Shown here: positions 8,728 through 50,012 of the stretch, piece after piece
Layout: the number at the start of each line of letters is the position of its first letter
Position numbering within the stretch: position 1 is the first letter of the stretch
From: Novosphingobium arvoryzae
Lineage (GTDB): Bacteria > Pseudomonadota > Alphaproteobacteria > Sphingomonadales > Sphingomonadaceae
DNA: 64,000 bases
NCBI RefSeq assembly: GCF_014652615.1
Contig: NZ_BMZD01000001.1
Span: 83,962-147,961, forward strand
Direction: 5' to 3'
Notes under the pieces: model-generated
Database searches by the model: none
Seen by the model: the letters and a program-made list of their open reading frames with translations, nothing else
What the model was told of the DNA's origin: nothing
Made by a program: the position numbers and the translations under genes

Positions 8728-9126
8728 ATGGCGACACACCCCGGACTTGCCCGCTGGCATGCCTATATGGATGGCGGCAGCGATCCGGCCGTACTGGCGG
8801 AGATGCTGGCGGATGATGCCGTGTTCCACTCGCCCGTGGTCCACACGCCCCAGGCGGGCAAGGCCAAGGTCATGGCCTACCTTGGCGCGGCCAGCGGCGT
8901 GTTCGGCAACGGGACGTTCGAATATGTTCGCGAGATTGTCGATGGCGACAATGTGATGCTGGAATTCACCTGCGAGATGGACGGTATCCGGGTTAACGGC
9001 ATCGACCTGATCCGGTTCAATGCGGACGGAAAGATACAGGATTTCAAGGTGATGGTGCGACCGCTGAAAGCCATCAACAAGGTCTGGGACCTGATGGCCG
9101 CACAGCTGCAGGCGGCACAGGGATAA
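8728..9126 (+). CDS. SnoaL/NTF2-like fold protein
   Basis: This is a 132-residue protein with the SnoaL-like pattern: ADDAVFHSPVVHTP early, then a strand-rich core, and GKIQDFKVMVRP near the end. NTF2-fold proteins include isomerases and ligand-binding proteins; no specific role can be given. The ATG at 8728 is preceded by AGAGGAA at good spacing and is preferred over the ATG at 8710. It is divergent from the hydroxylase gene. Confidence 0.8.
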   Translation: MATHPGLARWHAYMDGGSDPAVLAEMLADDAVFHSPVVHTPQAGKAKVMAYLGAASGVFGNGTFEYVREIVDGDNVMLEFTCEMDGIRVNGIDLIRFNADGKIQDFKVMVRPLKAINKVWDLMAAQLQAAQG

Positions 9127-9132
9127 ACGAAA

Positions 9133-9165
9133 GGGCGCCGTCCAGCATGAAGCCGGACGGCGCCC
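9133..9165. terminator. Terminator hairpin between convergent genes
   Basis: GGGCGCCGTCC (9133-9143) pairs perfectly with GGACGGCGCCC (9155-9165). Read leftward, the stem is followed by TTTCGTTT, so it best fits termination of rho transcription. It may also end the rightward SnoaL-like gene. Confidence 0.8.
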
Positions 9166-9192
9166 TGATCGGCCTGTTCGGGCGATGAACCC

Positions 9193-32299: not shown

Positions 32300-33043
32300 A
32301 TGGATCAACCGACAGTTCTCTATCACGTCAGCGACCTGCACTTCGGATACGAAGATCGCGCTGCGCTGGACTGGTTCGCCGCCGAGGTCGACCGCGAACG
32401 CCCCGCCGCCGTGATCTGCACCGGCGACCTGACGATGCGCGGCTCGGCGCGTGAATTCGCTGCCGCGACGAAATGGCTGGCGCAGCTGCCCGTGCCGGTC
32501 AGCCTTGAGCCGGGCAATCACGACGTACCCTATTACCACCACATGCTGCGCCGCCTGACCCGGCCCTATGCCCGCTACCGGGCGCTCGAAGCCGCGCTGG
32601 AAAGCGAGATCGCGCTACCCGACCTTGCGGTAGTACCGTTGAAAACGGTGGCGCGGGCACAGTTCCGGCTGAACTGGTCAAAAGGACGAGTCAGTGCCGG
32701 CGATTTGGATGCCGCCTTGCAGGGCCTGGCCCATCACGCGGGACGGCGCACCCGGCTGGTGGCCTGCCATCACCCTCTGGTGGAGGCTGACACCCACGCC
32801 ACGGCTTCGACGCGCGGAGGCAAACGCGCGCTCGCCGCACTGGCACGGGCGGGGGCGACGGCGGTCCTGTCGGGCCATGTCCACGATCCGTTCGACAAGC
32901 TGGTCGAGCTTGATGGTCAGACGATCCGGATCATCGGCGCGGGCACGCTGTCGCAGCGGCTGCGGACGTCGCGGCCTTGCTTCAACCGGCTGGAACTGAA
33001 TGCGAACGGCGCGATGGACGTTCAGGTGCGGACCCTGGACTAG
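32300..33043 (+). CDS. Calcineurin-like metallophosphoesterase
   Basis: A 247-residue protein with all five metallophosphoesterase motifs: DLHFG, GDLTMRG, GNHDV, the CHHPL block and GHVHDP. Two metal ions would be bound by these Asp, His and Asn residues. Related proteins are cyclic-nucleotide phosphodiesterases (CpdA-like), but the substrate is not certain. The ATG at 32300 is preferred to a GTG just before it. Confidence 0.9.
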   Translation: MDQPTVLYHVSDLHFGYEDRAALDWFAAEVDRERPAAVICTGDLTMRGSAREFAAATKWLAQLPVPVSLEPGNHDVPYYHHMLRRLTRPYARYRALEAALESEIALPDLAVVPLKTVARAQFRLNWSKGRVSAGDLDAALQGLAHHAGRRTRLVACHHPLVEADTHATASTRGGKRALAALARAGATAVLSGHVHDPFDKLVELDGQTIRIIGAGTLSQRLRTSRPCFNRLELNANGAMDVQVRTLD

Positions 33044-33729
33044 CGGCTGCCAGCGCGGGCGCGGACTTTCGCCTCGACCGCGTGGATCAGCGCCAGCAGG
33101 TCTTCGCGGCTGATGTCCAGCATTTCGTCCCAGGTTTCGAGCACATCATCGACATCCTGATCCTCGATATGACCGACCCAGTTGGCAGGAGTCGGGATCG
33201 GAGCGGCGCGGTGCGGATAGGAATGGCCGGTCAGACGGTTCCACGTGAAACCCGCCGCCAGCAGTACGACCACGTTCAGCATCAGCGGAACTAGCAGGAA
33301 CCCAGGACCGGCCGCGACAACGGCAGGCGCGGGCAGCGCGGTCAGCAACGCGGTCCCGCCGGCCGGGGGGTGCAGGCAGCGGGCAATGCTCATCGCTGCA
33401 ATTGCGGTGCCAACGGCCACGCCCGCCGCCAGCCAGGGCAGCGGGATCAGCCAGTGCGCCAGAATGCCCAGCGCTCCTGCAATCAGGTGCCCGCCCAATA
33501 CCGGCCAAGGCTGGGCCAGCGGACTGGCGGGCAGCACGAACACCAGCACCGCCGATGCCCCCATTGATGCAATCAGCCAGGGCAGTGTGGGCGAACCGGC
33601 CAGAGTCGCCCGGCCCACCAGTCCGGTGATCAGGATGGCCACGGTCGCGCCCAGCGCGCCGCGCAACCAGCCAATGCGCCCCAGCGCGCGCATGCCTGTC
33701 GGTGAGGAAAGCGGAACCTGGTTGGGCAT
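33040..33729 (-). CDS. HPP family integral membrane protein
   Basis: A 229-residue membrane protein with about four to five helices in residues 20-170 and the diagnostic HPPAGGTALLTA motif. HPP proteins have been linked to nitrite transport in chloroplasts; the bacterial role is unclear. A cytosolic tail follows from about residue 175. It is convergent with the phosphoesterase gene (4-bp overlap). A parS-like sequence (33237) lies in its 3' part. Confidence 0.87.
   Translation of the reverse strand: MPNQVPLSSPTGMRALGRIGWLRGALGATVAILITGLVGRATLAGSPTLPWLIASMGASAVLVFVLPASPLAQPWPVLGGHLIAGALGILAHWLIPLPWLAAGVAVGTAIAAMSIARCLHPPAGGTALLTALPAPAVVAAGPGFLLVPLMLNVVVLLAAGFTWNRLTGHSYPHRAAPIPTPANWVGHIEDQDVDDVLETWDEMLDISREDLLALIHAVEAKVRARAGSR
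33237..33252. promoter_or_regulatory. Off-cluster parS-like sequence
   Basis: GGTTCCACGTGAAACC contains a perfect TCACGTGG/CCACGTGAAAC-like core and one consensus half (CACGTGAAAC). It matches parS at 13 of 16 positions and lies about 28 kb from the parS cluster. It may be a weak or former ParB site, or chance. Confidence 0.4.
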
Positions 33730-33779
33730 TGCGGGAAACCTTGCGTGATGCGGTGGGGCCGCGGAGCGGAGGGACCAAC

Positions 33780-33790
33780 GAAAAAGGGGC
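33780..33790. repeat. Candidate left attachment core (attL)
   Basis: GAAAAAGGGGC is identical to 48977-48987 at the other end. It is also the start of a terminator stem, so identity could be coincidental. If real, removing the island would leave a single rpsI terminator. Confidence 0.4.
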
Positions 33791-33813
33791 CAGCCCTGCG
33801 GCCGACCCCTTTT
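33782..33813. terminator. Rho-independent terminator at the island's left edge
   Basis: AAAAGGGG (33782-33789) pairs with CCCCTTTT (33806-33813). Read leftward it ends in TTTTTC, so it would stop transcription coming out of the island or, before insertion, from rpsI. The stretch from here to the DUF6641-like gene (about 130 bp) is AT-rich and holds no gene. Confidence 0.75.
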
Positions 33814-33906
33814 CCTTGAATAACCGAAACGGCCTTGATCAGCGCTTCGATAACAGAACCGTGTAAAAAACGCTTTAAAAACAAATGTTTATTCCTAAAG
33901 AGAATA

Positions 33907-33927
33907 TTTCTGCTGCGATTCTGCTAC
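33907..33927. repeat. Integrase arm-type or attachment repeat, left
   Basis: TTCTGCTGCGATTCTGCTAC here matches TTCTGCTATGATTCTGCTAC at 48954-48973 at 18 of 20 positions, and a third partial copy CTGCTGCGATTATGCTA is at 48903. The shared block is GATTCTGCTAC. These may be integrase binding arms or the true att repeats. Confidence 0.5.
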
Positions 33928-33945
33928 GCAGATGCGCCTTAGCCA

Positions 33946-34383
33946 TTAAGTCGATTTATCACGAGATTTCGGTGCGTTGATAGCCATTGCGACATAAGCA
34001 TCCAGTTCTCCATTTACTGCCGCAGAACGCAGTGTTTCAAGCACGGGTTTCACATCGACAAGCTGTTTTACAAAAACGGCATTGCCGTCTTTGCTCAATG
34101 AGATTGGCTTAGACCCATACTTACACTGCACATAGAATCCACCATCTTGTTCGAAGAACCACGAACGCACGACCTTCTGCCTTTGCACACGCACCCTCTC
34201 GCCAGCTTCATTCTTCGTCCAGCGCGGTGCCGTGACAGCGTATTGCTCGCCACGCATTGCAGCTTCAGCGACTTCGATCTGCTCGTTGATTGCAGTCAGC
34301 AGCTTGGTTCGACGTGCTTCGATTGGGCTAAGTTTGGTCTGTCGAGTGACAGGCTTAATCGTAAGTTTTGCAAGTGACGACAT
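33946..34383 (-). CDS. DUF6641-like protein, unknown function
   Basis: A 145-residue basic protein. Its layout (SLAKLTIKPV..., IEARRTKLLTAINEQIEVAEA, then VVRSWFFEQDGGFYVQCKYGSKPISLSK, and a helical C-terminus) resembles the DUF6641 family found on proteobacterial islands. Function is unknown. AGGAGA precedes the ATG at 34383. It diverges from the 576-residue gene, and the control region between them contains palindrome A. Confidence 0.7.
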   Translation of the reverse strand: MSSLAKLTIKPVTRQTKLSPIEARRTKLLTAINEQIEVAEAAMRGEQYAVTAPRWTKNEAGERVRVQRQKVVRSWFFEQDGGFYVQCKYGSKPISLSKDGNAVFVKQLVDVKPVLETLRSAAVNGELDAYVAMAINAPKSRDKST

Positions 34384-34465
34384 GATCGCATTCTCCTGTT
34401 CCGAGAATGCGATTCTGAATCCTTCACATTGATATTCCTACCGATTTCCAGCCTAAATGAGCCAT

Positions 34466-34482
34466 ACTTTAAACTTTAAAGT
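34466..34482. promoter_or_regulatory. Island palindrome A (candidate operator)
   Basis: ACTTTAAACTTTAAAGT: two perfect 8-bp arms around one base. It lies 83 bp upstream of the DUF6641-like start and 68 bp upstream of the 576-residue protein's start, in their shared control region. Its reverse complement is identical to palindromes B and C. Confidence 0.8.
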
Positions 34483-34550
34483 TCGCTTTTCGTCACCAGT
34501 TGCATCGACCACTACGCATGGTAGCGTGTGCGGCATAGCGGGGGCGTTGG

Positions 34551-36281
34551 ATGGCTACTGAGCAGGAACTAAACGACAGACTGCAAAAGATTCAGGGTGA
34601 TGCACAGGAGCAGCATCGACTGCATGTAGGTGCAAGAAACCTACTGCATCGGAACCTTGCTGACGCATATGTCTGGTGGCTTGAAGCAATCAAACAACCG
34701 AAGAGCTATCTCGACAGCATCTTTAAAACGAATGCGATTGAAACCCGCTCAACCTCAAACGAAGTGAACTTCAATCCGATCATTCGCCTGATATTCAAAA
34801 TGCAAGCTGCAAATGCTGGAACCGCAAGCCAGTGGTCCGCCGCTTTACGAGTCGTGCATGAATATTATCAAGCAAACGAAAGTCACCTTCGAAGAGTTAA
34901 CGATATTGAGGGCGAGATTGCGGCTTTCATCAGAAAAAAGGGCGGAATCAGTGGGCTTAGGCTGATTCACAATCAGATATTCGATGCAGATAATCCAGAT
35001 GCGCTCACCTCGACAGCAACTGTTGAGCCGAAACGCAAACCAACGAAAGGCGACAAATATCGTCTCGATACCGAAGCTAAGATATTCAAATCGAAGAGAA
35101 GCCTTCTCAAGGATTCGAAGAGTCTCGGTGCCGTCGAAATCTCAGACATTGCCACGAACGATGATGACCTGATCGTTGTCCTTGCAAAACGTAATCCCAA
35201 AACGGGCAAGCTCGAAGCTGTTGGCACGACGAATGACGATGACGTGATCCGACAAGCGATCATGGAAAGCGTTGATACGGACGTTCGCAAGCTCGCCCCA
35301 AATCTACGTCTTATTGTTGAATGCCTGCGCCCGCATATCGTGCCGCACAAGCTGCAAAAGCTGAACGTTCGAAAAACATTCTTTTTGGAGCACGATCTGG
35401 GAAAGAATAAGGAGGGAAAGGACCGAAACTTCAGCGAGTTCGTTCGTTTTGTCCTTACCAAATCTGGAGCCATCATCGCCAGCAAGTCGCCCAGCACTGC
35501 AAGCCTTACAACCATCTCTCAGCCCAATGTGCCCTTCGAGCTTGAGCGAGATATCTTTCTACGTGGCAAGGACCGCTTCTGGATTGAAACGGAGCTTTTG
35601 AACAACGGTCAAATGCCGTTGTTCAAGGTCACGACGGAGCAAGGTTTGCTTGATGCCCCAGCAAATCTGACTGCTTCGAAAATGCTTGTGCTGAAAAATC
35701 AGCAGGCTGACGAAGAACGAAGAATCTACTTCTACGACTACGAAAACCTCGACGAAGAGCAGAGTTATCAGCCCGTCCCTGTCGATCAAATCAGCTATGA
35801 CTGGCAGATAGATGCGGACAAAAAGTTTGTCACACGCTTCTATCGCAAGCAGCTCGACCAATGGCTCGTGCTGGTCAAAAAGAACATTCATCTCGCAAGC
35901 AACAAAACGATGAAACTGGTGCTGGCAGATAGTTATCTTGAAGCACGATCCCACTTCGTCAAAGATCAGCCAGGTGTGAATGAGGAAGGCTACGCTCGTT
36001 TCGCTGATGACTACTACACGCTCTATGGGCGTGATGCGAAAGTCGAGCACCTGACAGATGCGCCTGCCGAAATCACCGTCTCACCGCTTGATATAGTAGA
36101 GCTTTTTGCGACGTTGGCGAATGTTCCGACAAAGGGACGCATCATGATCAGGGGTAATACCCACATCATGAATATCTCATACGAGACTGCGACAGCGAAG
36201 CATGAAGCCTTCATTCCCGCATGTGACCATGATGGTCAGCGGGATGCGACATACTTCAAATGGTATGTCCCCAATGCCTGA
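34551..36281 (+). CDS. 576-residue protein of unknown function, partner of the TGT-like enzyme
   Basis: I do not recognise this protein. It is soluble (no signal peptide or membrane segment) and rich in Asp, Lys and Glu. It has a helical N-terminal third (residues 1-130), a charged linker near 160-190, and a strand-rich second half (FYDYENLDEEQSYQPVPVD; GRIMIRGNTHIMNISYE). The stop overlaps the start of the next gene by 8 bp, so the two are translationally coupled and probably work together. Low GC. Possible roles (DNA recognition, substrate delivery, regulation) are speculation. Confidence 0.85.
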   Translation: MATEQELNDRLQKIQGDAQEQHRLHVGARNLLHRNLADAYVWWLEAIKQPKSYLDSIFKTNAIETRSTSNEVNFNPIIRLIFKMQAANAGTASQWSAALRVVHEYYQANESHLRRVNDIEGEIAAFIRKKGGISGLRLIHNQIFDADNPDALTSTATVEPKRKPTKGDKYRLDTEAKIFKSKRSLLKDSKSLGAVEISDIATNDDDLIVVLAKRNPKTGKLEAVGTTNDDDVIRQAIMESVDTDVRKLAPNLRLIVECLRPHIVPHKLQKLNVRKTFFLEHDLGKNKEGKDRNFSEFVRFVLTKSGAIIASKSPSTASLTTISQPNVPFELERDIFLRGKDRFWIETELLNNGQMPLFKVTTEQGLLDAPANLTASKMLVLKNQQADEERRIYFYDYENLDEEQSYQPVPVDQISYDWQIDADKKFVTRFYRKQLDQWLVLVKKNIHLASNKTMKLVLADSYLEARSHFVKDQPGVNEEGYARFADDYYTLYGRDAKVEHLTDAPAEITVSPLDIVELFATLANVPTKGRIMIRGNTHIMNISYETATAKHEAFIPACDHDGQRDATYFKWYVPNA

Positions 36282-37653
36282 GATTGATCGCAAAGCACAT
36301 GGTCCCGATTTAAAGAAGGTCTACGATAAGCGAGACTACGCAATCTATTTGCCGTCGTTGCAATCGCCATACGCATCGTTTGCTACTAAGCTTGAAAGCG
36401 AAGTGCGTGACGGGGATCTTCCTAAAGATTTCCGCATCAAGGACCTCGACTTTTTCAACCCAAATAGCCGACTATGGAGCTGTGGCTATGCGCTCTACAG
36501 CGCAGGACAGTTCACGGACTCACAGCTTCGATCAGATATCATCGCATATCGTGATCGCAGCAAATCAGTCGTGATCGGAGACAGTGGCGGGTTTCAGCTC
36601 GGCACTGGCAAAATCAGCAATGTAAACGAAAAAGCTGCACTCAATCGCTATGCGAATGATCCTGCTCAGCAAGTTGCAAACTGGCACGCAACGGGCTTTC
36701 GAGAGCGCACTTTAGAGTTTCTCGACCTCTACTGCGATTATTCCATGACCCTCGACATGCCACTCTGGGCGCGAAACAAGAATGGCAGTCAGCTTCGCAA
36801 TCTCGAAGTCGATCAACTGATCCAGCTGAGTGTCGAGAATCTTCGCTTTTTTGCGGACAATCGCGGGCGCAATCACGGCAAGGGGACGAAGTTTCTGAGT
36901 GTTTTGCAAGATGATGGCAATGGCTCAGGCTTTCGTTGGTATGATGCTGTAAAGGACTTTGAGTTCGAAGGCTGGGCGTTTGCTGGTGACATTGCTCGAC
37001 TTCCACAAACGATGACGTGGCTGCGAAAGCTGCTGGACGAAAAGAAGCTCGATAAGACGGAGTGGATTCACGTTCTTCAAAACTCGCCACCGATCATGAC
37101 CGCGCTTTACACAGCCATTCAGCGATCACTGAGTAAAGCAGCGGGTCATAAGATCACCTTGAGTTGCGACAGCAGCTCACCGCATCAGGCAGCGGGAAAG
37201 AATCGCGCCCTTTATCGTCGCCCTACATACACGAGTAAGCTCAGCTCGTGGCGCATGAGCTTGGATGTTGTTCCCCAGAACATTCAGGTTGCAAAAGGTC
37301 GCGCACCAGTGCCGATGCCTGAGGAATCACCGCTAGCAAAGTTCTTTAGTATCAATGATCTTGTCTATCACGATGACCCATACCAACACAGCTTTGTAGA
37401 CCCATTCGCTGAACATCTCATCGTCAATCACAACATCTACGTGTTCCATGCGACAGCGCAGGAATCTTGTGATCTGATCTTCGATAAGAAAAAGCGTGAT
37501 CTTTCAGTGGTGCCAACGGCGATACAGGAGTTTATCGGCTTCGCTGAAAGCTACTTCACGACTGACAAGCCAGACGAGCTGCACCAGCAGTTCGAGCCGA
37601 TCATGAAAAAGCTCTGCCGCAAGAAAAAGCCGAAACCGACCACGACGACTTAA
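36274..37653 (+). CDS. tRNA-guanine transglycosylase/DpdA-like base-exchange enzyme
   Basis: The 459-residue protein looks like a TGT-fold base exchanger. Residues 102-107 are the diagnostic DSGGFQ (general-acid Asp103; Zymomonas TGT uses Asp102). A VLQDDGNG stretch matches TGT's GIVQGG region, FEFEGWAFAG matches FDGYAIGG, and CDSSSP places Asp299 where TGT has its nucleophile Asp. TGT's Cys3-His zinc site is not evident. DpdA relatives insert preQ0 into DNA. No preQ0 synthesis gene is in the island. The substrate (DNA or RNA) is not proven. ATG 36274 is preferred; 36265 is possible. Confidence 0.8.
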   Translation: MPEIDRKAHGPDLKKVYDKRDYAIYLPSLQSPYASFATKLESEVRDGDLPKDFRIKDLDFFNPNSRLWSCGYALYSAGQFTDSQLRSDIIAYRDRSKSVVIGDSGGFQLGTGKISNVNEKAALNRYANDPAQQVANWHATGFRERTLEFLDLYCDYSMTLDMPLWARNKNGSQLRNLEVDQLIQLSVENLRFFADNRGRNHGKGTKFLSVLQDDGNGSGFRWYDAVKDFEFEGWAFAGDIARLPQTMTWLRKLLDEKKLDKTEWIHVLQNSPPIMTALYTAIQRSLSKAAGHKITLSCDSSSPHQAAGKNRALYRRPTYTSKLSSWRMSLDVVPQNIQVAKGRAPVPMPEESPLAKFFSINDLVYHDDPYQHSFVDPFAEHLIVNHNIYVFHATAQESCDLIFDKKKRDLSVVPTAIQEFIGFAESYFTTDKPDELHQQFEPIMKKLCRKKKPKPTTTT

Positions 37654-37958
37654 CCGATCAGTTCAAGCTCTACCGCTTCTTCGTTAACCAGCTGGTGGCA
37701 CTTCTCGCTTAGTTCGAGAAAGCGATGACCGACATGAGCGTGGCGTGGCGATGCAACAATCTGCTCTCCTGCTTTCTGAAGACGACTCCCCACGATGGCG
37801 ACCACACCAATGCTCGGCTCAGTCTTTTTGAACCGAAGACCGCGATAATAGCTGCTGCATTGCCCAAGCCATCCTTCTGAAAACTCTCCTTCATTCTCGA
37901 CAACTCCACGCTGTCTCAAAAAATCAAATATCTCCAAAATCACCGTGTTTTTATTCAT
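37650..37958 (-). CDS. DUF6626-like small protein, possible regulator
   Basis: A 102-residue protein. The first 70 residues (TVILEIFDFLRQRGVVENEGEFSEGWLGQCSSYYRGLRFK) resemble DUF6626 proteins of alphaproteobacteria and look helix-turn-helix-like, with EFSEGWLG as a possible turn. Function is unknown; it is one candidate for the regulator of the island palindromes. Its 3' end overlaps the convergent TGT-like gene by 4 bp. Confidence 0.6.
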   Translation of the reverse strand: MNKNTVILEIFDFLRQRGVVENEGEFSEGWLGQCSSYYRGLRFKKTEPSIGVVAIVGSRLQKAGEQIVASPRHAHVGHRFLELSEKCHQLVNEEAVELELIG

Positions 37959-38603: not shown

Positions 38604-39176
38604 TCATTGCAACACGGCATAAACCGTATTTGGGCTGACTTTGACCTCTTTACAGATAGCTCGAATGGAAGCTCCATTTCGCTTCATCCATTGTATCTTT
38701 GCGATCTGCGCTTCCGTTGTGGGCTTGCGACCGAAACGCACACCGCGCTCTTTCGCCTTCCTGATCCCGACAATCTGACGCTCTTTACGGATCGTATTCT
38801 CGAACTCGCTGAAGATCCCCAAAAACTGGAAGAACATCGATCCCATTGCTGTCGAGGTATCGATTGCCTGCTTGTAGCTGAAGATATCAATCTTGCTGTC
38901 TTTCAGCTCGGTGAGCACCAAGACAAGATTTCGCATTGATCTGCCCAAGCGATCAACGGACCAGACAACGACTTTCTCAAAGCGACGGAGCTTGGCGTCA
39001 TTCATCATGCGCTTCAGTTCTGGGCGATCTTCAGTCTCCTTCGTCCCGCTGATCTTCTCGCTGTAAACCTCTACGACTTCCCAGCCCGATCGTTCTGCAA
39101 GTGCGTGAAGCTCTTCGAGCTGACCCTCGTAGTTCTGATCGACCGTCGACACACGAGCGTAGATCGCAACCTTCAT
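38604..39176 (-). CDS. Serine recombinase (resolvase/invertase family)
   Basis: A 190-residue small serine recombinase. The catalytic Ser10 is in YARVSTVDQ. The core has VVVWSVDRLGRSMRNLV, and a C-terminal helix-turn-helix reads GASIRAICKEVKVSPNTVYAVL. Members catalyse site-specific inversion or resolution. Its site may be in the hairpin-rich stretch just downstream. Low GC; it could also resolve or invert part of the island. Confidence 0.93.
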   Translation of the reverse strand: MKVAIYARVSTVDQNYEGQLEELHALAERSGWEVVEVYSEKISGTKETEDRPELKRMMNDAKLRRFEKVVVWSVDRLGRSMRNLVLVLTELKDSKIDIFSYKQAIDTSTAMGSMFFQFLGIFSEFENTIRKERQIVGIRKAKERGVRFGRKPTTEAQIAKIQWMKRNGASIRAICKEVKVSPNTVYAVLQ

Positions 39177-39312: not shown

Positions 39313-40242
39313 CTAACGCTTGCTTCCATAAGCGCACATGGGTTTCACGCTGCACAGGTGACAGAGCGGTTTTTTCGCATGACAGACCGTTCGAGCAAAG
39401 CCGCCTTTTTCGTCAGGCTCCTGACCGAGCTTGACGACTATATAATCAAGCGACCGCATCGAGACGCCTGACGCTTCAGAAATATCTCTATAGACGCCCT
39501 GCAATGCCCACATGAAATCTGCATCGCTGCCGAGAGACGTAGCCCGCTTTGTCGTAATATCTGGATCAAGCTGATATCTGACGCCATTCTTATCATAGCC
39601 ATCCATCCATCCCATTCGAACAGTCGATCTGTTGAGAACACGGTCTGGCTTAACGACTTGAAACCCAAGCTCAGTCATCAAATGGAATATGGTAACCGCA
39701 CCAAATCGTAGGTCGCCTTGCAGGTGCTCATGAATCTGTCTCATCGCCTCAGGCGTTGATACGTCCCCCCTGCGATATGTGTAGAAATCTAATATCGATC
39801 TATCATTCACCCTCTTCCACTCATTGATGCGTCTTGCAGCACGAATGACCTTCTTGAGAGCGGGCTTGTGACGGTAGTTTCGTGAGTCTTTGAGAAACTT
39901 TTCAAATCTCTTGCCGCCTTCATTCCATTCTTTGGAATCAAGTGCCTCTCTGTCTCCTAGATATTTCTTGAGCATGTGAGGCACTCGCTCATCGACTGCG
40001 CTGGCTCGTTTGCCAGCGTAGAATGGCTTCATCGCCGCAATCTTCCAGAAATCTTCATCTGAAAGGTTCGGGTTGAAATGCAGCCCGTCCATCTTTGCGA
40101 GATAACGTTTGACCCGAGAGCGGCGCGCTCCCGCAATCTTTGGGTCTTTTTGCTTCTCACGATCAGACTTCGATGTAGCCTGCGAGAGCAAAGTCTCCCG
40201 TAGTCCCGTTACAAATCCCCTCAACTCGCCCCGTTCAATCAT
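39313..40242 (-). CDS. Endonuclease III-like [4Fe-4S] DNA glycosylase
   Basis: A 309-residue protein ending in the exact endonuclease III cluster spacing C-X6-C-X2-C-X5-C (Cys287, 294, 297, 303). The upstream segment FGAVTIFHLMTELGFQVVKPDRVLNR resembles the HhH-GPD core, with Asp200 in place of the VDTH catalytic Asp. The expected HhH Lys is not obvious, so it may be a base-excising glycosylase without lyase action. The N-terminal 150 residues are unusual and charged. Target base unknown. Palindrome B lies 53 bp upstream. Confidence 0.75.
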   Translation of the reverse strand: MIERGELRGFVTGLRETLLSQATSKSDREKQKDPKIAGARRSRVKRYLAKMDGLHFNPNLSDEDFWKIAAMKPFYAGKRASAVDERVPHMLKKYLGDREALDSKEWNEGGKRFEKFLKDSRNYRHKPALKKVIRAARRINEWKRVNDRSILDFYTYRRGDVSTPEAMRQIHEHLQGDLRFGAVTIFHLMTELGFQVVKPDRVLNRSTVRMGWMDGYDKNGVRYQLDPDITTKRATSLGSDADFMWALQGVYRDISEASGVSMRSLDYIVVKLGQEPDEKGGFARTVCHAKKPLCHLCSVKPMCAYGSKR

Positions 40243-40503: not shown

Positions 40504-43035
40504 TCACTCCTTTGCGACAACCGTGTCGTAAAGCCCGTAGTGCGTCAGCCCCTTGTGACTATTGATGCCCGTATATCGCAATGATGCATCTTCATAACGA
40601 CGGAACGCAAAAACTGCGTGGTTCATGCGTTCCGTATTGAACACCTTCAACCGCACGAGCAGGTGAAAGTCGCTTACCGTTAAGCCTGTGACAGCGTGAA
40701 AAAGATCAGGCTCTAACTTCGTGATCACGTCTTGAAGGGTGTTTTCACGGAAATCAGTCAGATACATGAAGGCAGGAATGCGAGTGGCGAACTTGATCAG
40801 CTTCTCCTGAACGAGCTTACGCTTCGACTTGTATTCCTTCTCCTCGTCGGTCAGCTCTTTCTTCTCTTTCGCTGTTAGTCCTTCTCCCTTCGCCTTGCCT
40901 TTCAAATCTTTGATCTTTTCACCCTTATTGATGATCGTCTCAATGATGTTGTCACCAAGCGCCCGCCAGCCCTCGATACGCTCAACTGCTGCCATTGCTT
41001 CGGGATTATCGAGAACGCGGCGCAGCGTATCGTTATCGACATTGACCAGCAGCGCAGATTCCCACTTGCGAGCCAACAAAGTGCCTGACGTACCTGCCAT
41101 CGCAATGTCGAGAATGCCGCCTGCATCGATCTGCGTCATGTTCGCGCCATCGTAAGCCAGCACGGGTAAGAAGGAGACAAGCTCCTTCACGGCGTTTTCA
41201 GGGTTCGTCTCACCTGGCGAAAGCCCGATGCCGTAGTCAGAAAGCTGACGCAGTGCCCGCGTCGGTGCAAAGTCGAACACGAAGCAAATGGGCTTCAAAA
41301 TCTCTTCTTCATTCGGATTGTCACCATTCGGATTCTTGATCGACCAAGGTGATTGCACACGAAACGCAGCTTGGAAGTAGGTTTCAGGCGACTTCAGATT
41401 GCGAAGCATCAAGATCGAAGACCACTGCGGAATCGTCACCCCTGTTGTCAGCTTTCCGCAAGAGAGCGTGATCGTCTTCGTCTCGAAACCGCTTCCGATT
41501 GCTCGGCGAACGGGGGGAACAGCATCGAGACCAATGCCTGCTTGCGTTCCAGCAGCAAGAATAACCTTGTAGCCGTGCCAGAACGTGTTGTGCTTCTCTT
41601 CGAGCAGATTTGCCATCGCATGGCAGGCGGCGACGTTCGGCAGGAACCAGAACGAATGCTGAAGATAGGGCAAAAGTCGTGAATCTGAGTAAGGAAACGG
41701 CGGTCGCGTTCCAGTCTTCAAGCTATCAACCGTCTGCGGGACGTATGACCCTCGAATAATCTCAAGCCACTTTTGAACGTCAGACTTGTGTTTAAACGCT
41801 GCTTTTGCACCGTTGCCCGTTGCGGCGAAAAACTCGTTTAGATCAAACTCGTCAAACTCACCCGCGCTGGCAATCGCAAGCAGTTCGTCGGGCATTTGAT
41901 ATGTCAGCAAACGCATCTGCGGCAGAGCGGCATACGGGTTGCGTTTGTCGGGATGCTTGGCGGCAAACGCTGCTTTTGCTCGTTGCTCGTCCGTGTATGT
42001 CCAGTTGAAGATTTGCTCTTCGATGAACTCGCCCGTCGCAAGCGCCTTGAACGGTGTCCCAGAAAGATAGAGATATGCGCGGGTCGTGATCGGCAGGAAT
42101 ATCGCTTCGTTTGCAGATAGATCGCTTAGGTCTTCGTTTACCTCATCGAGACCAGCATCATATTCCAGCTTCTCTTCACGCTTTGCGTCTTCTTCGCCTT
42201 CAAAAAGCTCTTTCGCTGTGTCTCGCCATGCCCCGAAGTGGTATTCATCGAACACGACAAGATCCCAGTTGATCGTATGTAGCCATGTGTTGCGCGGCTT
42301 GATCGCTCCAGTGGCTTTGTCACGTCCGAGCAGGTCTTGAAACGAGCCGAAGAAAACGACGGGCTTGTCTTTGTCGATCTGGCTTGGATCGCTCTCTGAC
42401 TTGCGAGAGAGATACTGCCACCCTTCGAAGTCTACATGAGACTCAAGGTCAGTCTGCCACGCATCTTCGACAGCTGGCTTGAATGTCACGACCAGAACAC
42501 GCTTTGCGCCCAGCTTCTTGGCGAGCTGGTATGAAGTAAACGTTTTCCCGAAACGCATCTTCGCATTCCAAAGGAAACGCGGAACTGCATTCGCATCTTC
42601 GTTCCAGATCGACTGGAAGTAAGAAGCAGTCTTCTCAACAGCTTCAGCTTGTTCTTGACGCGGAGGAAACCTTTCGCTGCGGTTCTCGGATAGCTTTTTG
42701 CCCGTTCGCAGCTCGGTCAGCACAGTCTGAACATCAGAAACAGTGCATCTCATCCACTCCAACTGGGGGTTATCGAAACCTTTTTTTTTGAGAGCGGTCC
42801 TAACAGCGTGATCAGATAACGTTGAGCCGTCATCTCTCGCTGCACTCTCATCAAGTTCAATCTTGAAGTCGATGGCAGCAGTTTTGACCTGCTCAGCTAT
42901 GCGCTGCTTTACGTCACGTGTGGTCTGCCCAATCTTAAGAAGTCCGACATGCGAGTCGCTGTTGATCGAATATGCGTAAATGCGCGGATTTGCGTCTGGC
43001 TTTGACGCAAGAATCTCATCGATTGGTTTAGTCAT
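40504..43035 (-). CDS. T5orf172/GIY-YIG-like domain fused to SF2 helicase
   Basis: An 843-residue protein. Residues about 18-50 (RIYAYSI...GLLKIGQTTRDVKQRI) match the T5orf172/MUG113 branch of GIY-YIG nucleases. A superfamily 2 helicase follows, with Walker A MRFGKT (about 160-165), DEYH (263-266) and an SGTPF motif III. A long C-terminal region includes a Lys/Glu-rich coiled stretch. It probably acts as the translocase or nuclease arm of the methyltransferase pair encoded just upstream. The start is ATG 43035, overlapping the methyltransferase stop by 8 bp. Confidence 0.85.
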   Translation of the reverse strand: MTKPIDEILASKPDANPRIYAYSINSDSHVGLLKIGQTTRDVKQRIAEQVKTAAIDFKIELDESAARDDGSTLSDHAVRTALKKKGFDNPQLEWMRCTVSDVQTVLTELRTGKKLSENRSERFPPRQEQAEAVEKTASYFQSIWNEDANAVPRFLWNAKMRFGKTFTSYQLAKKLGAKRVLVVTFKPAVEDAWQTDLESHVDFEGWQYLSRKSESDPSQIDKDKPVVFFGSFQDLLGRDKATGAIKPRNTWLHTINWDLVVFDEYHFGAWRDTAKELFEGEEDAKREEKLEYDAGLDEVNEDLSDLSANEAIFLPITTRAYLYLSGTPFKALATGEFIEEQIFNWTYTDEQRAKAAFAAKHPDKRNPYAALPQMRLLTYQMPDELLAIASAGEFDEFDLNEFFAATGNGAKAAFKHKSDVQKWLEIIRGSYVPQTVDSLKTGTRPPFPYSDSRLLPYLQHSFWFLPNVAACHAMANLLEEKHNTFWHGYKVILAAGTQAGIGLDAVPPVRRAIGSGFETKTITLSCGKLTTGVTIPQWSSILMLRNLKSPETYFQAAFRVQSPWSIKNPNGDNPNEEEILKPICFVFDFAPTRALRQLSDYGIGLSPGETNPENAVKELVSFLPVLAYDGANMTQIDAGGILDIAMAGTSGTLLARKWESALLVNVDNDTLRRVLDNPEAMAAVERIEGWRALGDNIIETIINKGEKIKDLKGKAKGEGLTAKEKKELTDEEKEYKSKRKLVQEKLIKFATRIPAFMYLTDFRENTLQDVITKLEPDLFHAVTGLTVSDFHLLVRLKVFNTERMNHAVFAFRRYEDASLRYTGINSHKGLTHYGLYDTVVAKE

Positions 43036-44689
43036 CGCCGTCAATGACCCCCAACTCCATCGGTTTGATAACCGCTTCAATGTAGTCGATCTGCGCCTGC
43101 GTCAGACCATACTTCTTATAGAGTGCATCATCTGTCCAAATGCGATCCCATTGCTGCATGGGAGCCCATGCGTATGTTCCCCTCAGCGCATCTTGCGTGA
43201 TCTTTCTCAACGAAACCAAAAAGCGGAAAAACTTTGTACCATAATAGGAATATAAGCTTTTTGCTTCACTTTCAGTCTCTACCCAAAAGGCAACAAACGT
43301 CTGTGTGCAGATCGAGTTCGGAGCGACAATCATCGGCTTACCAAGCACGACATCTGGAATCTTTTGACCACCGTCCGACCCCGCTTTTGGCGCGAGGACT
43401 TTCCATAAGTCGATTAGGTGTGCGTTCTTCTTAACTGTTGATCTTTCTATATATCCGACTGAACGCTTACCTTGCTTAACCAAGTGCAGCTCCACATCTG
43501 CATGACTTTGCGCTTTCCGATAGTCTTCGAAGTTTGTGGCAATACCAAACGGCGTGTCGCCTGTGAGAATCTCAATAATCGATGGCTCCGCCTGCTGTTG
43601 AACTTTTCGAAGGATTTCAGCACCGCGCGGGTCCCTGACAAAAACATCGAACTCATTCAGACTACGAGCAACGGGTCCAACTACCTCTTCGCCTCTTATC
43701 ATGGTTACATTGGTGGAGCCACTATGCTCATTATCCCATAAGAAATAGCAAATCCCACCCTTAACTTCGACGTTGGGAAAAACATCCTTCGAAACAGGAT
43801 AGTCTACTATTTCTGCGAGTTTCCCGCACGAAAGCATTTCCGCACGAAACTCATCCATGCCTCGTCCGCCCGCCATCCAGCGTGAGGGTATGACCATGCT
43901 CACATAACGCGGTTCAAGACGCATCGCTTGCTCCACGAAGAGATGATAAATCGAAGAATCACTCGTCCCGCCAGCTCCACCTGTCATCTGATATGGCGGA
44001 TTCCCGATAATCACATCAAACTGCATGTCGTCTCCAAACAGCTCCGCAATGCGGCGCTTGATATCGTCGGTATGGATGAATGCGTAAGCGTGGTTTTCTA
44101 ACTCACTCTCACGATCAAAAAGAGCGCGGGGCGCGCCACAAAACTCGCATTTACCGTCTTTAGCTTCGGCAAACTTTTTGACGGTGTTGCCGCTCTTATC
44201 TGTAACAGAAACCCATTTGCTACTGCCGACCCATGAATGTTCAATGCGTTCAAACCAGATGTTTCCATCAGAAGCATCGAAACTCTTGGCGACCGAATGT
44301 TCGCCGTCAGCATGTTTCGAGCAATACAAGCTGCGACGGGCAAGCAGGCTGGTCAGCCGAGTAATGCCAATGCCGAAAATCTGTTTTGTCAGAATATGAT
44401 CGACACGCTTTTGAAGGTCAGGGATTTCTTCCCTCAATCCAACAATCAGTCGGGTTGCAATCTCTCGAAGGAACACGCCAGACTTGGTGAACGGATCGAG
44501 AAAGCGAACAGAGCTATCCGCCCAGATGCTTGCCCCGTCATTGCGCTCTGACCATGCTTCAGCCAGCGTGTCCAACATTCGATTAGCAAACTCGGGCGGC
44601 GTAAAAACTTCATCGTTTGAGAGATTCGCAATGCAGGTCAGCACATCAGGGTTTCGCCCACGAAGTGCAAAGCCAACCTGCTCGTTCAT
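43028..44689 (-). CDS. Eco57I-type adenine-specific DNA methyltransferase
   Basis: A 553-residue protein. SAM motif I is FLDPFTKSG (63-71) and the catalytic motif IV is NPPYQ (230-234), so it should be an N6-adenine methyltransferase. A CEFC pair is at 181-184. The C-terminal half (residues 330-550) would be target-recognition, with AWAPMQQWDRIWTDD near the end. AAGGGGG precedes the ATG. It lies between the 209-residue methyltransferase-like gene (18 bp away) and the helicase gene. Confidence 0.88.
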   Translation of the reverse strand: MNEQVGFALRGRNPDVLTCIANLSNDEVFTPPEFANRMLDTLAEAWSERNDGASIWADSSVRFLDPFTKSGVFLREIATRLIVGLREEIPDLQKRVDHILTKQIFGIGITRLTSLLARRSLYCSKHADGEHSVAKSFDASDGNIWFERIEHSWVGSSKWVSVTDKSGNTVKKFAEAKDGKCEFCGAPRALFDRESELENHAYAFIHTDDIKRRIAELFGDDMQFDVIIGNPPYQMTGGAGGTSDSSIYHLFVEQAMRLEPRYVSMVIPSRWMAGGRGMDEFRAEMLSCGKLAEIVDYPVSKDVFPNVEVKGGICYFLWDNEHSGSTNVTMIRGEEVVGPVARSLNEFDVFVRDPRGAEILRKVQQQAEPSIIEILTGDTPFGIATNFEDYRKAQSHADVELHLVKQGKRSVGYIERSTVKKNAHLIDLWKVLAPKAGSDGGQKIPDVVLGKPMIVAPNSICTQTFVAFWVETESEAKSLYSYYGTKFFRFLVSLRKITQDALRGTYAWAPMQQWDRIWTDDALYKKYGLTQAQIDYIEAVIKPMELGVIDGDD

Positions 44690-45420: not shown

Positions 45421-46368
45421 TCAAATGCTGTCATATTTCTGCTTCAGAAGCAGGGTTGCGTATTCAACGTCCTTAGGGGTTGTGACGGAAAACTGATATT
45501 CGTGTCCCTTGTTGCCATTGCGCCAAGTGAACTCCTTAGCAGCTCCCACACCCTTTGGGTCATCAATCTCGATGTAGTTCTTGGACTTCGTCCCGTCGGG
45601 ATAGAGAGTGCCGCGAACAATGCTGATCATCAGGCTGGTTTTTCTGAAGTAGACGTAACAGATTGCCGTCGAGCCCTTGTTAACTCGGATATAGTGCTTC
45701 TTGCTTGAGCAGCTCGTGTCTTCAAGATTGCCAAAATACTCCTTCAAGCCCTCCCACACCTCAGCGCACTGAGCCGAAGTTTTTGAAACATGTTCAGCTT
45801 CATCCGTTACTTCGATTTCAGCGTTCACAGATGAGATGACGGAGCCGCTTGCGGTTATGTTTTCGATCTTTTCCTTCGACGTTGGCAGATGCTGCACAAG
45901 CGATATGATATCGTTGTTGAAGCGTTTAATCTCCCACAGCTCAAATGGCATGTCTTTGAAGTTGACACTGTTTTTCTGATACGAGTTGAACGAAGGAGAT
46001 ATGAAGATCACTCGTGACTGCGACCAATCGACCTGATCTTTTTTCAGCGTTTTTTCGGTTTTCTCGTTATATTCGAGAATGAAGTCAGCTTTGTTTTGCA
46101 GCATCGTGGAAAGATACGAATACCCCTGATCGATAACTGAGTAGCTGTTACCCTTCTTATACTCGATGATCACGAACGCGGCGTTGTCCTCATCAAAGCA
46201 AAGCGTATCAAGCCTGTAACTCCCGATAGTGAACTCGCTGCACACCATTTGAAGGTTGAAAAGGGAGCTGACATTGCTCTCGATGAGGGACTGAATGTCT
46301 TTCTCAAGCTCAAACGGCGTCGGCGAGAACTCAACCAACTTATTCTGGTTTTGCTTGAATAACTTCAT
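45421..46368 (-). CDS. DUF5655 protein with PD-(D/E)XK nuclease-like fold
   Basis: A 315-residue protein. The N-terminal segment has the nuclease pattern Asp54 (RLDTLCF), Glu69 and Lys71 (IIEYKKG), as in NucS-like PD-(D/E)XK nucleases. The C-terminal part (residues 200-315, CAEVWEGLKEYFGNLED...GTLYPDG) matches DUF5655. These proteins are found in many islands with restriction systems. It may cut DNA for the module; no activity is proven. Low GC. Confidence 0.8.
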   Translation of the reverse strand: MKLFKQNQNKLVEFSPTPFELEKDIQSLIESNVSSLFNLQMVCSEFTIGSYRLDTLCFDEDNAAFVIIEYKKGNSYSVIDQGYSYLSTMLQNKADFILEYNEKTEKTLKKDQVDWSQSRVIFISPSFNSYQKNSVNFKDMPFELWEIKRFNNDIISLVQHLPTSKEKIENITASGSVISSVNAEIEVTDEAEHVSKTSAQCAEVWEGLKEYFGNLEDTSCSSKKHYIRVNKGSTAICYVYFRKTSLMISIVRGTLYPDGTKSKNYIEIDDPKGVGAAKEFTWRNGNKGHEYQFSVTTPKDVEYATLLLKQKYDSI

Positions 46369-47354: not shown

Positions 47355-47375
47355 AAACTTTAAAGTTTAAAGTTT
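47355..47375. promoter_or_regulatory. Island palindrome C (candidate operator)
   Basis: AAACTTTAAA-G-TTTAAAGTTT, a perfect 10-bp-arm palindrome whose central 17 bp (47357-47373) is identical to palindrome B. It sits in the 79-bp gap between the integrase stop and the Q-rich gene start. Confidence 0.8.
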
Positions 47376-48877
47376 CACGGCTGCGGTTCGTCAGCTTTCT
47401 GTTTTGCGAGTTTCATGATGCCGAGCATCGTCTGCTCATCAATCTCTCCAGCTTGATACCGCTTCATTGCTTCGAGAATGAACGGATCGAGACTGGTTAC
47501 GGTTTCTGGCTCTGCCTTCTTCGCCTTGCGCTTCACTTTCACGATAGCACTGCGTCGTGTGTTTGAAGTCGAGTGATCGTAGTGTCGTTCAAGCTGCTCA
47601 CGCTTGCAGCCCATGTTCAGCGCCAAGTCTGCATATTCGACACCATGCTCTCGCCTCACTGTGGCGTATGTGTGGCGCAACGAGTAGAGTGAACGCTTCT
47701 CGCCCTCCTTGTTGAAAAGCAGCCCCGTTTCCGTGCCTTCGACGGGCAAACGGCTCAGGAAGTGCTGGAACGACTTGTTCAGGTTCGAGAACGGCTTGGG
47801 CTTGTTGTCACTCGCCTTTTGCTGTCCGAACCAAACAAGGTCATTCGGACCAGTGTATGGTGATTTGTCTCGCCACTCTTTCAGCGTTTTGTTCGCATTG
47901 GGCTGTGTCTGCACATCGCGGTTTTGACTGGTTTTTGTCGCTTTTCTCACGCCCACGACGCAGATTGGTTCATCAAACTCATCGCTGGGTTGATCGAACG
48001 TTATGTCACGCCACCTCATTTCGCGGGCTTCACCTACACGAAGACCGCTGTTCAGCATGAAGATCACGAAGTGATAAAGCTGAGTGCGTTGTAGCTTGTG
48101 CCACGCATTCACCCTGTCATCTTTGAAGTGACCAATCAGGTCGCGGTAGCTTCGCAGATAGGCTGTCATCGATCGGTGTTCGTCGGGTTCGAAGTGTGGA
48201 CGACGATGATGAGGGCGACTGTCTTGAGGTGGCTTCATCTTGAAGACCTGCTGTAAGCGCCCACGCTCCCGCGCATCTGCGAAGATCATGTTGAGCGCAG
48301 TCTGATCCATCTGAAGCGTCTTTTTCGCAGGCACCTTCGCCACATTCTTCGTGGTCTTGGTTTTCGCCTTGCGCCGCTTTGGATTGTAATCAGACAGCTT
48401 TTCGCCCTGATGCGTTGACCAATATGCGATGCGCCAATCCCAGTAGTTTTGCGCTATCTCAGGGGTGATATCGTTGAGACGCATCGAGGTGCCGTCTGCA
48501 TATCGGAAATATGCTTTGTAGTAGCGGGCAGACTGGTTCTTATACCAACGCTGCCGATCTGCCTTCCAGACACCGTTGTTGATCTGGCGCTGATACCAAT
48601 CGTCACAGTGCTTTTCGAAAGTGTAGTCATCAAGCGTGTGACCGAGAGATGCCGCATTTCTGAGCCGATCATACTCCTTCCGCGCAAACGCATAAGCATC
48701 TTCGTAGATCGTCAAACCCGTGCTGCGATTGATGATCTTACGCGGACCAACTCGCAGCTTCATGTACCACTTAGGCTGGCGATGGGATTTCACATTGGGG
48801 GCGGCAGTGGCGAGATTGCGCTGATATAGAATCAGATCGCCGCCGAGATGCTCGATCCTGTTCTCGTAATATGCCAC
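47375..48877 (-). CDS. Tyrosine-type site-specific integrase
   Basis: A 500-residue integrase. The catalytic domain has Arg280 (NSGLRVGEAREM), Arg401 in YSLRHTYAT and Tyr433 in ERHYDHS. The His of the usual HxLRH box is replaced by Tyr398, a known variant. The start is GTG 48877. It lies at the right end of the island facing inward, the usual phage-island layout, and should act on the candidate att repeats at 33780/33907 and 48954/48977. Confidence 0.95.
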   Translation of the reverse strand: MAYYENRIEHLGGDLILYQRNLATAAPNVKSHRQPKWYMKLRVGPRKIINRSTGLTIYEDAYAFARKEYDRLRNAASLGHTLDDYTFEKHCDDWYQRQINNGVWKADRQRWYKNQSARYYKAYFRYADGTSMRLNDITPEIAQNYWDWRIAYWSTHQGEKLSDYNPKRRKAKTKTTKNVAKVPAKKTLQMDQTALNMIFADARERGRLQQVFKMKPPQDSRPHHRRPHFEPDEHRSMTAYLRSYRDLIGHFKDDRVNAWHKLQRTQLYHFVIFMLNSGLRVGEAREMRWRDITFDQPSDEFDEPICVVGVRKATKTSQNRDVQTQPNANKTLKEWRDKSPYTGPNDLVWFGQQKASDNKPKPFSNLNKSFQHFLSRLPVEGTETGLLFNKEGEKRSLYSLRHTYATVRREHGVEYADLALNMGCKREQLERHYDHSTSNTRRSAIVKVKRKAKKAEPETVTSLDPFILEAMKRYQAGEIDEQTMLGIMKLAKQKADEPQP

Positions 48878-48953
48878 CGCAGACCCCCAGAAGATGCCCT
48901 GACTGCTGCGATTATGCTATTTCCGAGAACCCGAACCGTCAATGTTTCTGCGG

Positions 48954-48973
48954 TTCTGCTATGATTCTGCTAC
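48954..48973. repeat. Integrase arm-type or attachment repeat, right
   Basis: TTCTGCTATGATTCTGCTAC matches the left copy at 33907 (18 of 20). A partial third copy CTGCTGCGATTATGCTA is at 48903. Proximity to the integrase start suggests a role in integration. Confidence 0.5.
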
Positions 48974-48976
48974 AAA

Positions 48977-49008
48977 GAAAAAGGGGCTGCGATTTCTCGC
49001 AACCCCTT
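48977..49008 (-). terminator. rpsI: rpsI-rplM operon terminator at the island border
   Basis: On the leftward strand AAGGGGTTGCG and CGCAGCCCC pair with one mismatch, followed by TTTTTC. The first 11 bases on the + strand (GAAAAAGGGGC, 48977-48987) are the candidate att core shared with 33780. A smaller AT-rich hairpin (49018-49037, ACGAAAA/TTTTCGT) lies next to the rpsI stop. Confidence 0.8.
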
Positions 49009-49038
49009 GATTTCAGTACGAAAAAGTGACTTTTCGTC

Positions 49039-49533
49039 TTAGCGCTTGCTGAACTGGAAGCTGCGGCGAGCCTTGGCCCGGCCGTACTTCTTGCGTTCAA
49101 CGACGCGGGGGTCGCGGGTCAGGAACCCGGCAGCCTTGACGGCCGAGCGCAGCGCCGGCTCGTACTTGGTCAGCGCCTGCGAGATGCCATGCTTCACGGC
49201 ACCCGCCTGGCCCGACAGACCGCCGCCCTTGACGGTGGCGATCACGTCGTACTGACCTTCGCGATCAGCGACCTGGAACGGCTGGTTCAGCACCAGACGC
49301 AGGGTCGGACGGGCGAAATAGACCGACTGGTCGCGGCCATTGACGGTAACCTTGCCGGTGCCGGGCTTGATCCACACGCGGGCAACGGCGTCCTTGCGGC
49401 GGCCGGTGGCATAGGAACGGCCCTGGGCGTCGATTTCCTTTTCGCGCAGCGGCGCGGCGGGAGCGGCCGGGGCAGCCGGGGTTTCGGCAATCGAGCCGAG
49501 GTCGGCCAGATCGGTGACGGTGTTATCGGACAT
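49039..49533 (-). CDS. rpsI: 30S ribosomal protein S9
   Basis: S9 is a small-subunit protein whose C-terminal tail reaches the P site. The 164-residue protein has the core [21 protein letters not shown] and ends with [16 protein letters not shown]. An Ala/Pro-rich N-terminal extension (about 35 residues) is typical of alphaproteobacteria. It overlaps rplM by a few bases (ATGA) as usual. Confidence 0.97.
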
Positions 49534-50012
49534 CAGGCACCCACCTTGTTCTTGCGGTTACGGGCAGCAACATCGAGCACTTCCGGCTGGTTGCCGGCGT
49601 GCGGATGTTCGGCGCTGGAATAGAGGTGCAGCGCGCGCATCTGGTCACGACCCAGCGGGCCGCGCGGAATCATGCGCTCGACAGCCTTTTCCAGCACGCG
49701 CTCGGGGAAGCGACCGTCGAGGATCTTGTCCGCGGTCACCGCCTTGATGCCGCCGGCATAGCCGGTGTGCTTGTAATAGGTCTTCTGCTTCAGCTTGTTG
49801 CCGGTCAGGCGCACCTTGCCAGCGTTGATGACGACGACGTGGTCACCGCAATCGACGTGGGGGGTGAAGCTCGGCTTGTGCTTGCCGCGCAGGATATTGG
49901 CGATGATCACGGCCAGACGCCCGACCACCAGACCTTCGGCATCGATCAGATGCCACTTCTTTTCCACCTCGGCCGGCTTGATCGACCGGGTGACCTTGCT
50001 GAGCGCCTTCAT
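49533..50012 (-). CDS. rplM: 50S ribosomal protein L13
   Basis: L13 is an early-assembly large-subunit protein. The 159-residue protein has [17 protein letters not shown] near residue 18 and [18 protein letters not shown] near 57. It leads the rplM-rpsI operon. Upstream (50013-50173) lie two hairpins, ATCCGG/CCGGAT (50064-50079) and CCCTTTC/GAAAGGG (50094-50110), which could be leader structures or a terminator of the upstream gene. Confidence 0.97.

Follow-up and report, generated by a model that had tools for sequence, protein, structure and literature searches.

What does a gene pair do that couples a relative of tRNA-guanine transglycosylase (TGT) with a protein of no recognised family? 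Such a pair lies in a stretch of 64,000 nucleotides from Novosphingobium arvoryzae (NCBI RefSeq assembly GCF_014652615.1, contig NZ_BMZD01000001.1, positions 83,962 to 147,961), which as a whole we call the window and to which coordinates refer unless one of our locus numbers (L005 and the like) is given. In the list of open reading frames (ORFs), a partner gene for 576 residues (34551-36281, forward strand) overlaps by 8 bases the gene of a TGT-like protein of 459 residues (36274-37653, forward strand, ATG at 36274), a putative DNA-guanine transglycosylase whose frame also opens earlier, at 36202, to give a 483-residue form. Both ORFs and their overlap had been noted in a preliminary description of the sequence. 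Here, we lean, with a confidence slightly above even, towards reading the pair as a small mobile two-gene DNA-guanine transglycosylase module of the TGT/DpdA superfamily, which would comprise a clamp-related tether and draw its 7-deazaguanine from the host.

Does the 459-residue protein belong to this superfamily? Its AlphaFold model (predicted local distance difference test, pLDDT, 85.2; predicted template modelling score, pTM, 0.88) matched eight PDB structures at E<=0.001, namely six TGTs, one QTRT1/2 and one DpdA, and VIA-align of the model with TGT gave a Z of 18.3 and a root-mean-square deviation (rmsd) of about 4.5 over about 310 residues, with 10-14% identity in the alignments listed. 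Both catalytic positions are retained: DSGGFQ starts at residue 103 of the 459-residue form (Asp103 codon, 36580-36582, forward strand; aligned with the Asp of DSGGYQ in canonical TGT) and DSSSP at residue 299 (Asp299 codon, 37168-37170, forward strand; CDSSSP aligned with FDCVLP). We take Asp299 to be at the position of the TGT nucleophile, and the catalytic roles of both residues to be those of Z. mobilis TGT. Of 100 family members aligned, the window protein among them, 99 have the first Asp (the remaining row being a gap) and all 100 have the second; with such conservation, the two motifs are not a matter of chance. The protein also contains VLQDDGNG and FEFEGWAFAG, and its five cysteines are scattered without forming a CxCxxC zinc motif, which is found in none of the 100 aligned members. 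Thus, all the motifs named in the preliminary description are in place, as is the lack of an evident zinc site.

By sequence, the kinship is harder to see. The TGT-like protein matched nothing significantly in Pfam, NCBIfam, PHROGs or PADLOC, with no PF01702 match at E<=1, and nothing among the PDB sequences, whether searched as a single sequence or as a profile. Using hhalign, a profile of 27 relatives aligned with 6 canonical TGTs at E 9.4e-7 across 243 columns, placing DSGGFQ on DSGGYQ, FEFEGWAFAG on FDGYAIGG and CDSSSP on FDCVLP, so that, as judged from profiles, the protein is tied to canonical TGT weakly but significantly. Among viral models (BFVD), DpdA2 of Vibrio phage nt-1 (R9TGF0) was matched at E 5.1e-8 and the TGT of phage Motura at rank 7, and a TGT-domain protein of phage GR7B, which has CxCxxC, was matched by sequence at E 5.2e-8. 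The predicted TGT-type barrel together with both catalytic Asp positions shows membership of the TGT/DpdA superfamily, while CxCxxC and PF01702, the marks of a canonical tRNA-TGT, are missing. The kinship claimed at the outset is hence backed by fold and active-site alignment, and also by phage relatives lying beside folE and queE, to which we now turn.

The family is seen chiefly in large phages, and most of the relatives found sit in viral contigs, where at least 593 of 599 candidate stretches encode one. Bacterial relatives are rare: within the window's own taxonomic family 4 of 249 genomes have one, within the order 8 of 396, and the class and phylum draws gave 2 of 385 and 4 of 398, each count including the window's own genome. 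Plasmids yielded a relative in 1 of 72,556 records. Thirteen phage records carry one: 11 Pseudomonas phages of the PA5oct/Paride type, Sinorhizobium phage Phosso and Vibrio phage 2.275.O, the PA5oct-type homologue being 26% identical. The window's own genome holds two further TGT-like copies, on C2 (L005, 5635-8945) and C12 (L006, 3-965), one of which is broken off at a contig end, as well as an additional TGT-like fragment at C12:7030-7353. Separately, in two Klebsiella plasmids (H58, H59) a Tgt gene and rmtG are both annotated under the TGT match.

What accompanies the enzyme in phages? Among the viral loci analysed, which are the best-scoring 80 of the at least 593 stretches, a gene that we call clamp-like precedes the TGT-like gene in 78, ending anywhere from 73 bases inside to 1314 bases upstream of it. 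The two loci in which it is missing are L036 and L052, the TGT-like gene of the latter lying 471 bases from the contig end. The clamp-like gene was found by its match to one of four phage seed proteins, among them one (that of Phosso) belonging to another PHROG; a single family holds 77 of the 78 genes, and all 17 members checked matched phrog_12062. Downstream, where at least 4.5 kb follow the TGT-like gene (39 viral loci), FolE was matched in 31 and QueE in 12, and the QueC, QueD and QueF queries had no match in these 39. In Vibrio phage 2.275.O, the annotated downstream genes encode a 7-cyano-7-deazaguanine reductase, a COG1738 transporter, a queuosine biosynthesis protein, GTP cyclohydrolase I and a QueD-family protein. 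Paride is annotated with two DNA polymerase pieces flanking a homing endonuclease, followed by a 248-residue protein, an 86-residue protein and the TGT-like gene, with a QueE-like gene further on. A gene family whose Paride member has a weak glycosyltransferase match occurs in 38 of the 39 long viral loci (e.g. L017, 13602-14663), and its product might decorate the base.

The phage clamp-like protein is likely a sliding clamp. Its Vibrio member is matched, in addition, by phrog_223 (DNA polymerase processivity factor) at E 6.7e-5 over most of the member's length, and in phage 9g an annotated replicative clamp adjoins an annotated queuosine tRNA-ribosyltransferase, which is its DpdA, with a DNA polymerase beyond the clamp. 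This DpdA belongs to the TGT superfamily, as its annotation also says.

The bacterial partner, which the preliminary description could not place, gave no significant family match in Pfam, NCBIfam, PHROGs or PADLOC. It falls into an N-module (residues 1-240, approximately) and a C-module, tested as residues 405-576 (35763-36281, forward strand), and hidden Markov model (HMM) and hhalign comparisons show homology between the latter and the phage clamp-like protein (phrog_12062), in the C-terminal part of that protein. When a C-module HMM built from 15 bacterial partners was searched against 3389 phage ORFs, the clamp-like protein accounted for 23 of the first 25 matches and for 72 of the first 100, and the 11 clamp-like matches among the top 12 all stop within 3 residues of the clamp-like C-terminus. 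The single E-values are modest (best 0.0012, with an unrelated ORF third at 0.0029). When the 32 phage families of 8 or more members were ranked by hhalign, the clamp-like one came first (E 1.3e-4, score 35.5), ahead of a runner-up at E 0.031 and score 18.8. As a control, an N-module HMM run against the phage ORFs listed no clamp-like match. An HMM of the whole partner scored 77 clamp-like proteins above 469 other ORFs of similar size with an area under the curve of 0.967, and shuffled or reversed copies reached 3.7 bits against 12.9. Because the 77-79 clamp-like sequences are relatives of one another, the rank statistics of the HMMs are not independent, and the profile rank of 1 in 32 is the fairer figure. 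Thus, the last third of the partner can now be tied to a phage clamp-like protein, and the remainder stays without a family match.

Is the pairing a regular one in bacteria? We compared 17 bacterial loci (the window, L005, L011-L015, L020, L029-L031, L118, L119, L121 and L142-L144), with L006, L120 and L122 excluded from the count as carrying fragments. A gene for 503-627 residues adjoins the TGT-like gene in 15 of them, upstream on the same strand in 12, divergently in L030 and L144 and convergently in L020, while L121 (247 residues) and L142 (316 residues) have the N-module alone. A partner-sized or half-partner gene therefore stands next to the TGT-like gene in all 17, which bears on the co-occurrence that the preliminary description had raised. 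Ten loci were searched with HMMs from the respective other lineages, and in 9 of these the partner came out as the top match (E 6e-28 to 5e-4); L011-L015, L031 and L144, which stood outside this comparison, are close relatives of tested loci. The partner was not found in phages or plasmids, nor in viral contigs, the last searched by patterns drawn from the lineage of the window. Both genes are under purifying selection: across three pairs of close relatives, the ratio of nonsynonymous to synonymous substitution rates (dN/dS) is 0.09-0.11 for the TGT-like gene (dN 0.037-0.077 vs dS 0.34-0.79) and 0.09-0.16 for the partner gene (dN 0.051-0.118 vs dS 0.32-1.21), a fourth pair, window and L011, being too distant for a useful dS. 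With a dN/dS of about 0.1, the notion of a decaying gene was set aside.

Taken together, how could such a pair work? Most likely, we suppose, guanine in DNA would be replaced by a 7-deazaguanine, probably preQ0 or preQ1, made by the host for queuosine, with Asp299 serving as the nucleophile and Asp103 as the acid/base. The 576-residue partner may be a two-part tether that holds the enzyme on DNA or couples it to replication, because the clamp-like protein beside the phage enzymes is a relative of its C-module. The outcome would be modified DNA, resistant to restriction or marked as self. More tentatively still, and short of an even chance, the pair may form a clamp-tethered system distinct from the dpd islands, whose partner rides on DNA and couples the exchange of guanine for 7-deazaguanine to replication, one lineage perhaps having its own replication factor C (RFC)-like loader. 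Indeed, at L142 a 233-residue RFC-like AAA+ protein (8897-9598, reverse strand) is encoded between the N-module gene and the TGT-like gene, with its best matches in the PDB to replication factor C subunits at E 2.3e-18 and a match to a T4 clamp-loader subunit at 4.6e-9; this loader, seen at one locus, agrees with a clamp theme.

Several results weigh against this picture. On the enzyme side, DpdA 7ui4 superposes loosely on the model (E 3.3e-4, TM-score 0.32-0.35, rmsd 17), the tRNA-TGTs fitting better, so that the structural comparison called for by the preliminary description confirms TGT with both Asp residues in place and leaves DpdA itself a poor fit; also, 9g DpdA and nt-1 DpdA2 gave no significant match in single-sequence comparisons (E 0.045 each). 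On the partner side, the identification of the phage protein as a sliding clamp is indirect, since it rests on one phrog_223-matching member and on gene order: phrog_223 was matched in only 1 of 12 phage records, neither T4 gp45 nor the 9g clamp directly matched the phage protein or the partner, and the phage profile had seven matches among PDB sequences, all at E 0.077 or worse and none named a clamp. When six partners from the window's lineage were first compared with the clamp-like protein, nothing emerged (E 0.29), and the phage clamp HMM did not find the partner among 930 ORFs of 13 bacterial loci, window excluded, so that the relationship is recovered only in the reverse direction. The neighbour in L020 (Azospirillum) fails the cross-lineage HMM test (E 6.3), its homology thus not being established. 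Finally, the structure model of the partner is poor (pLDDT 46.6), its C-module part included, which leaves a clamp fold of the partner unproven.

The indirect clamp identity is what lends room to another view of the partner alone, compatible with the enzymatic reading above: it could be a subunit that provides specificity or recruits, and its resemblance to the phage protein would then reflect a family of TGT partners unrelated to replication clamps. We regard this as rather unlikely, if a serious contender, since the Paride order of DNA polymerase, clamp-like gene and TGT-like gene, the adjacent clamp and DpdA of 9g and the RFC-like loader of L142 all speak for replication.

Could the pair instead belong to the defence genes around it? 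The preliminary description had placed it on an island, and indeed the G+C content, about 65% in the window, falls to 48-52% across approximately 34-49 kb, with the pair inside and an integrase-like gene at the right end (47375-48877, reverse strand; weak XerS match, E 6e-4) that adjoins rpsI, recognised by eye. A related integrase adjoins rpsI and rplM (by eye) both in the window (47375-50012) and in L029 (122-2719), which suggests a common insertion site. An attachment-site search between 32500-34600 and 48700-49700 found no direct repeat longer than 12 bases. As deep nodes of the tree are weakly supported, we draw no direction of transfer. Close to the pair lie a DUF6641 protein upstream (33946-34383, reverse strand; Pfam PF20346), recurrent in at least 6 of the 17 bacterial loci, a DUF6626 protein downstream (37650-37958, reverse strand; PF20331), recurrent in at least 8 of 17, and a small serine resolvase (38604-39176, reverse strand; PF00239); small serine or tyrosine recombinases occur in 14 of 19 loci, counted in the fetched stretches with no control for chance.

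Further along, an OGG/EndoIII-like protein (39313-40242, reverse strand; PADLOC OGG, E 1.7e-5) is a possible accessory DNA glycosylase. Its family is present in 4 of 17 loci, directly after the TGT-like gene in L029, and OGG- or EndoIII-like proteins of more than one family are present in 5 of 17. At 40504-44689 (reverse strand), a ResIII helicase with a MUG113 N-terminal domain stands beside an Eco57I-type methylase, one type IIG restriction-methyltransferase model matching both as if split, and the gene at 45421-46368 (reverse strand) is matched strongly in PADLOC by PDC-S18, a candidate defence family (E 3.5e-104). Elsewhere, L005 has type III restriction-modification with E1 and JAB proteins, L031 HmaB/HmaC, L030 a cytosine methylase, L011 a viperin-like protein and L142 MmeI. 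At L005 9150-11691 (reverse strand), an E2-like protein, recognised by eye, is encoded between the E1-like and JAB-like ones, beside the TGT-like paralogue.

With this setting in mind, the enzyme could be an anti-phage effector that the partner steers to replicating phage DNA, where a swapped base or lesion would block the phage and the OGG-like glycosylase complete the attack. The defence-type neighbours in the window (type IIG-like), L005, L031 (Hma), L030 and L142 and the glycosylases at five loci are in keeping with this, but these neighbours come with no control for their frequency near random genes, and no glycosylase was found in the other 12 of the 17 loci, those present being of several families. 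The phage relatives are accompanied by preQ0 synthesis genes, which suggests protection of own DNA. We consider the anti-phage role a good deal less probable than the specificity subunit.

From where would the modified base come? Among the island proteins that were scanned, none was recognised as an enzyme of preQ0 synthesis, in agreement with the preliminary description, whose proposal of a minimal system borrowing host preQ0 is plausible. In the host genome, TGT, QueC and QueF score above curated cut-offs, QueC lying on the same contig some 25 kb beyond the window, and a QueE-like gene scores 51.7 bits, far under the model's cut-off, with an ORF that resembles QueE by eye. What speaks against such a supply is QueD (PF01242), which had no match in the host genome, while the same search was positive in 9 of 14 control genomes. 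With QueC, QueF and a QueE-like gene found and QueD not, host preQ0 is likely but incomplete on paper. This gap, along with the lack of a recognised preQ0 gene beside the pair, of the zinc motif and of any but structural likeness to known DpdA, would also suit an enzyme that retains TGT chemistry and exchanges a different base, not 7-deazaguanine; we think this improbable, as folE and queE lie near many phage relatives and more queuosine-pathway genes near one. Equally improbable is a divergent TGT acting on tRNA or other RNA with the partner as RNA-binding subunit, for which the lead of tRNA-TGTs over DpdA among PDB matches would argue, but which is opposed by the canonical TGT already in the host, the phage gene placed between the clamp-like gene and folE/queE, the restriction or modification genes in several bacterial loci and nt-1 DpdA2 among the viral structure matches.

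To the question of how DNA-acting transglycosylases reach their sites, a concrete and testable answer is offered by what recurs beside the enzyme, a clamp-like protein in phages and a clamp-related one in bacteria. Moreover, this association gives a context to phrog_12062, which is listed as of unknown function, as well as to a bacterial protein that went unrecognised in Pfam, NCBIfam, PHROGs and PADLOC, and it adds bacterial genomes, beyond those with dpd islands, in which to look for 7-deazaguanine in DNA.

Is the system, then, a known one in a new place? In its predicted chemistry, it follows TGT/DpdA. As for its architecture, two genes with a clamp-related partner, no description was found in the literature searched, mostly at the level of abstracts (including PMC6884629, PMC11945000, PMC12783734, PMC12839542, PMC7824862, PMC13282480 and PMC11078745). 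A canonical tRNA-guanine transglycosylase has the fold and the catalytic Asp positions in common with the window protein, which differs from it in lacking CxCxxC and a Pfam TGT match. With the bacterial dpd islands (DpdA-K), the likeness is that DpdA 7ui4 is among the eight PDB matches; no dpd family was among the PADLOC matches listed for seven island proteins, a statement that covers these proteins and not the rest of the genome, with PADLOC's own dpd models unchecked, and a canonical dpd island was set aside as no dpd partner was recognised. The BREX-related capture (BRC) systems (PMC12839542) are similar in that a TGT homologue occurs in a bacterial defence setting; PglZ, DUF6079, DUF4007 and HerA of BRC were unmatched in the eight proteins scanned with Pfam, which leave the other island genes aside.

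Among phages, 9g is alike in the annotated replicative clamp adjacent to its DpdA and differs in that the latter has 317 residues and no significant sequence match. The DNA of Vibrio phage nt-1 is reported to contain dPreQ0, dADG and dG+ (PMC6884629); its DpdA2 has superfamily and structural match in common with the window protein, whereas the DpdA2 gene has preQ0 genes around it and no annotated clamp in the stretch examined. A system for deazaguanine synthesis and incorporation has already been predicted in jumbo phage PA5oct, and PA5oct and Motura carry their own deazaguanine synthesis genes (PMC7824862). They are linked to the window protein by the 26% identity of the PA5oct-type homologue and the structural match to the Motura TGT. 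Here, by contrast, no local preQ0 gene is recognised, and the enzyme is encoded on a bacterial island together with a partner of two modules.

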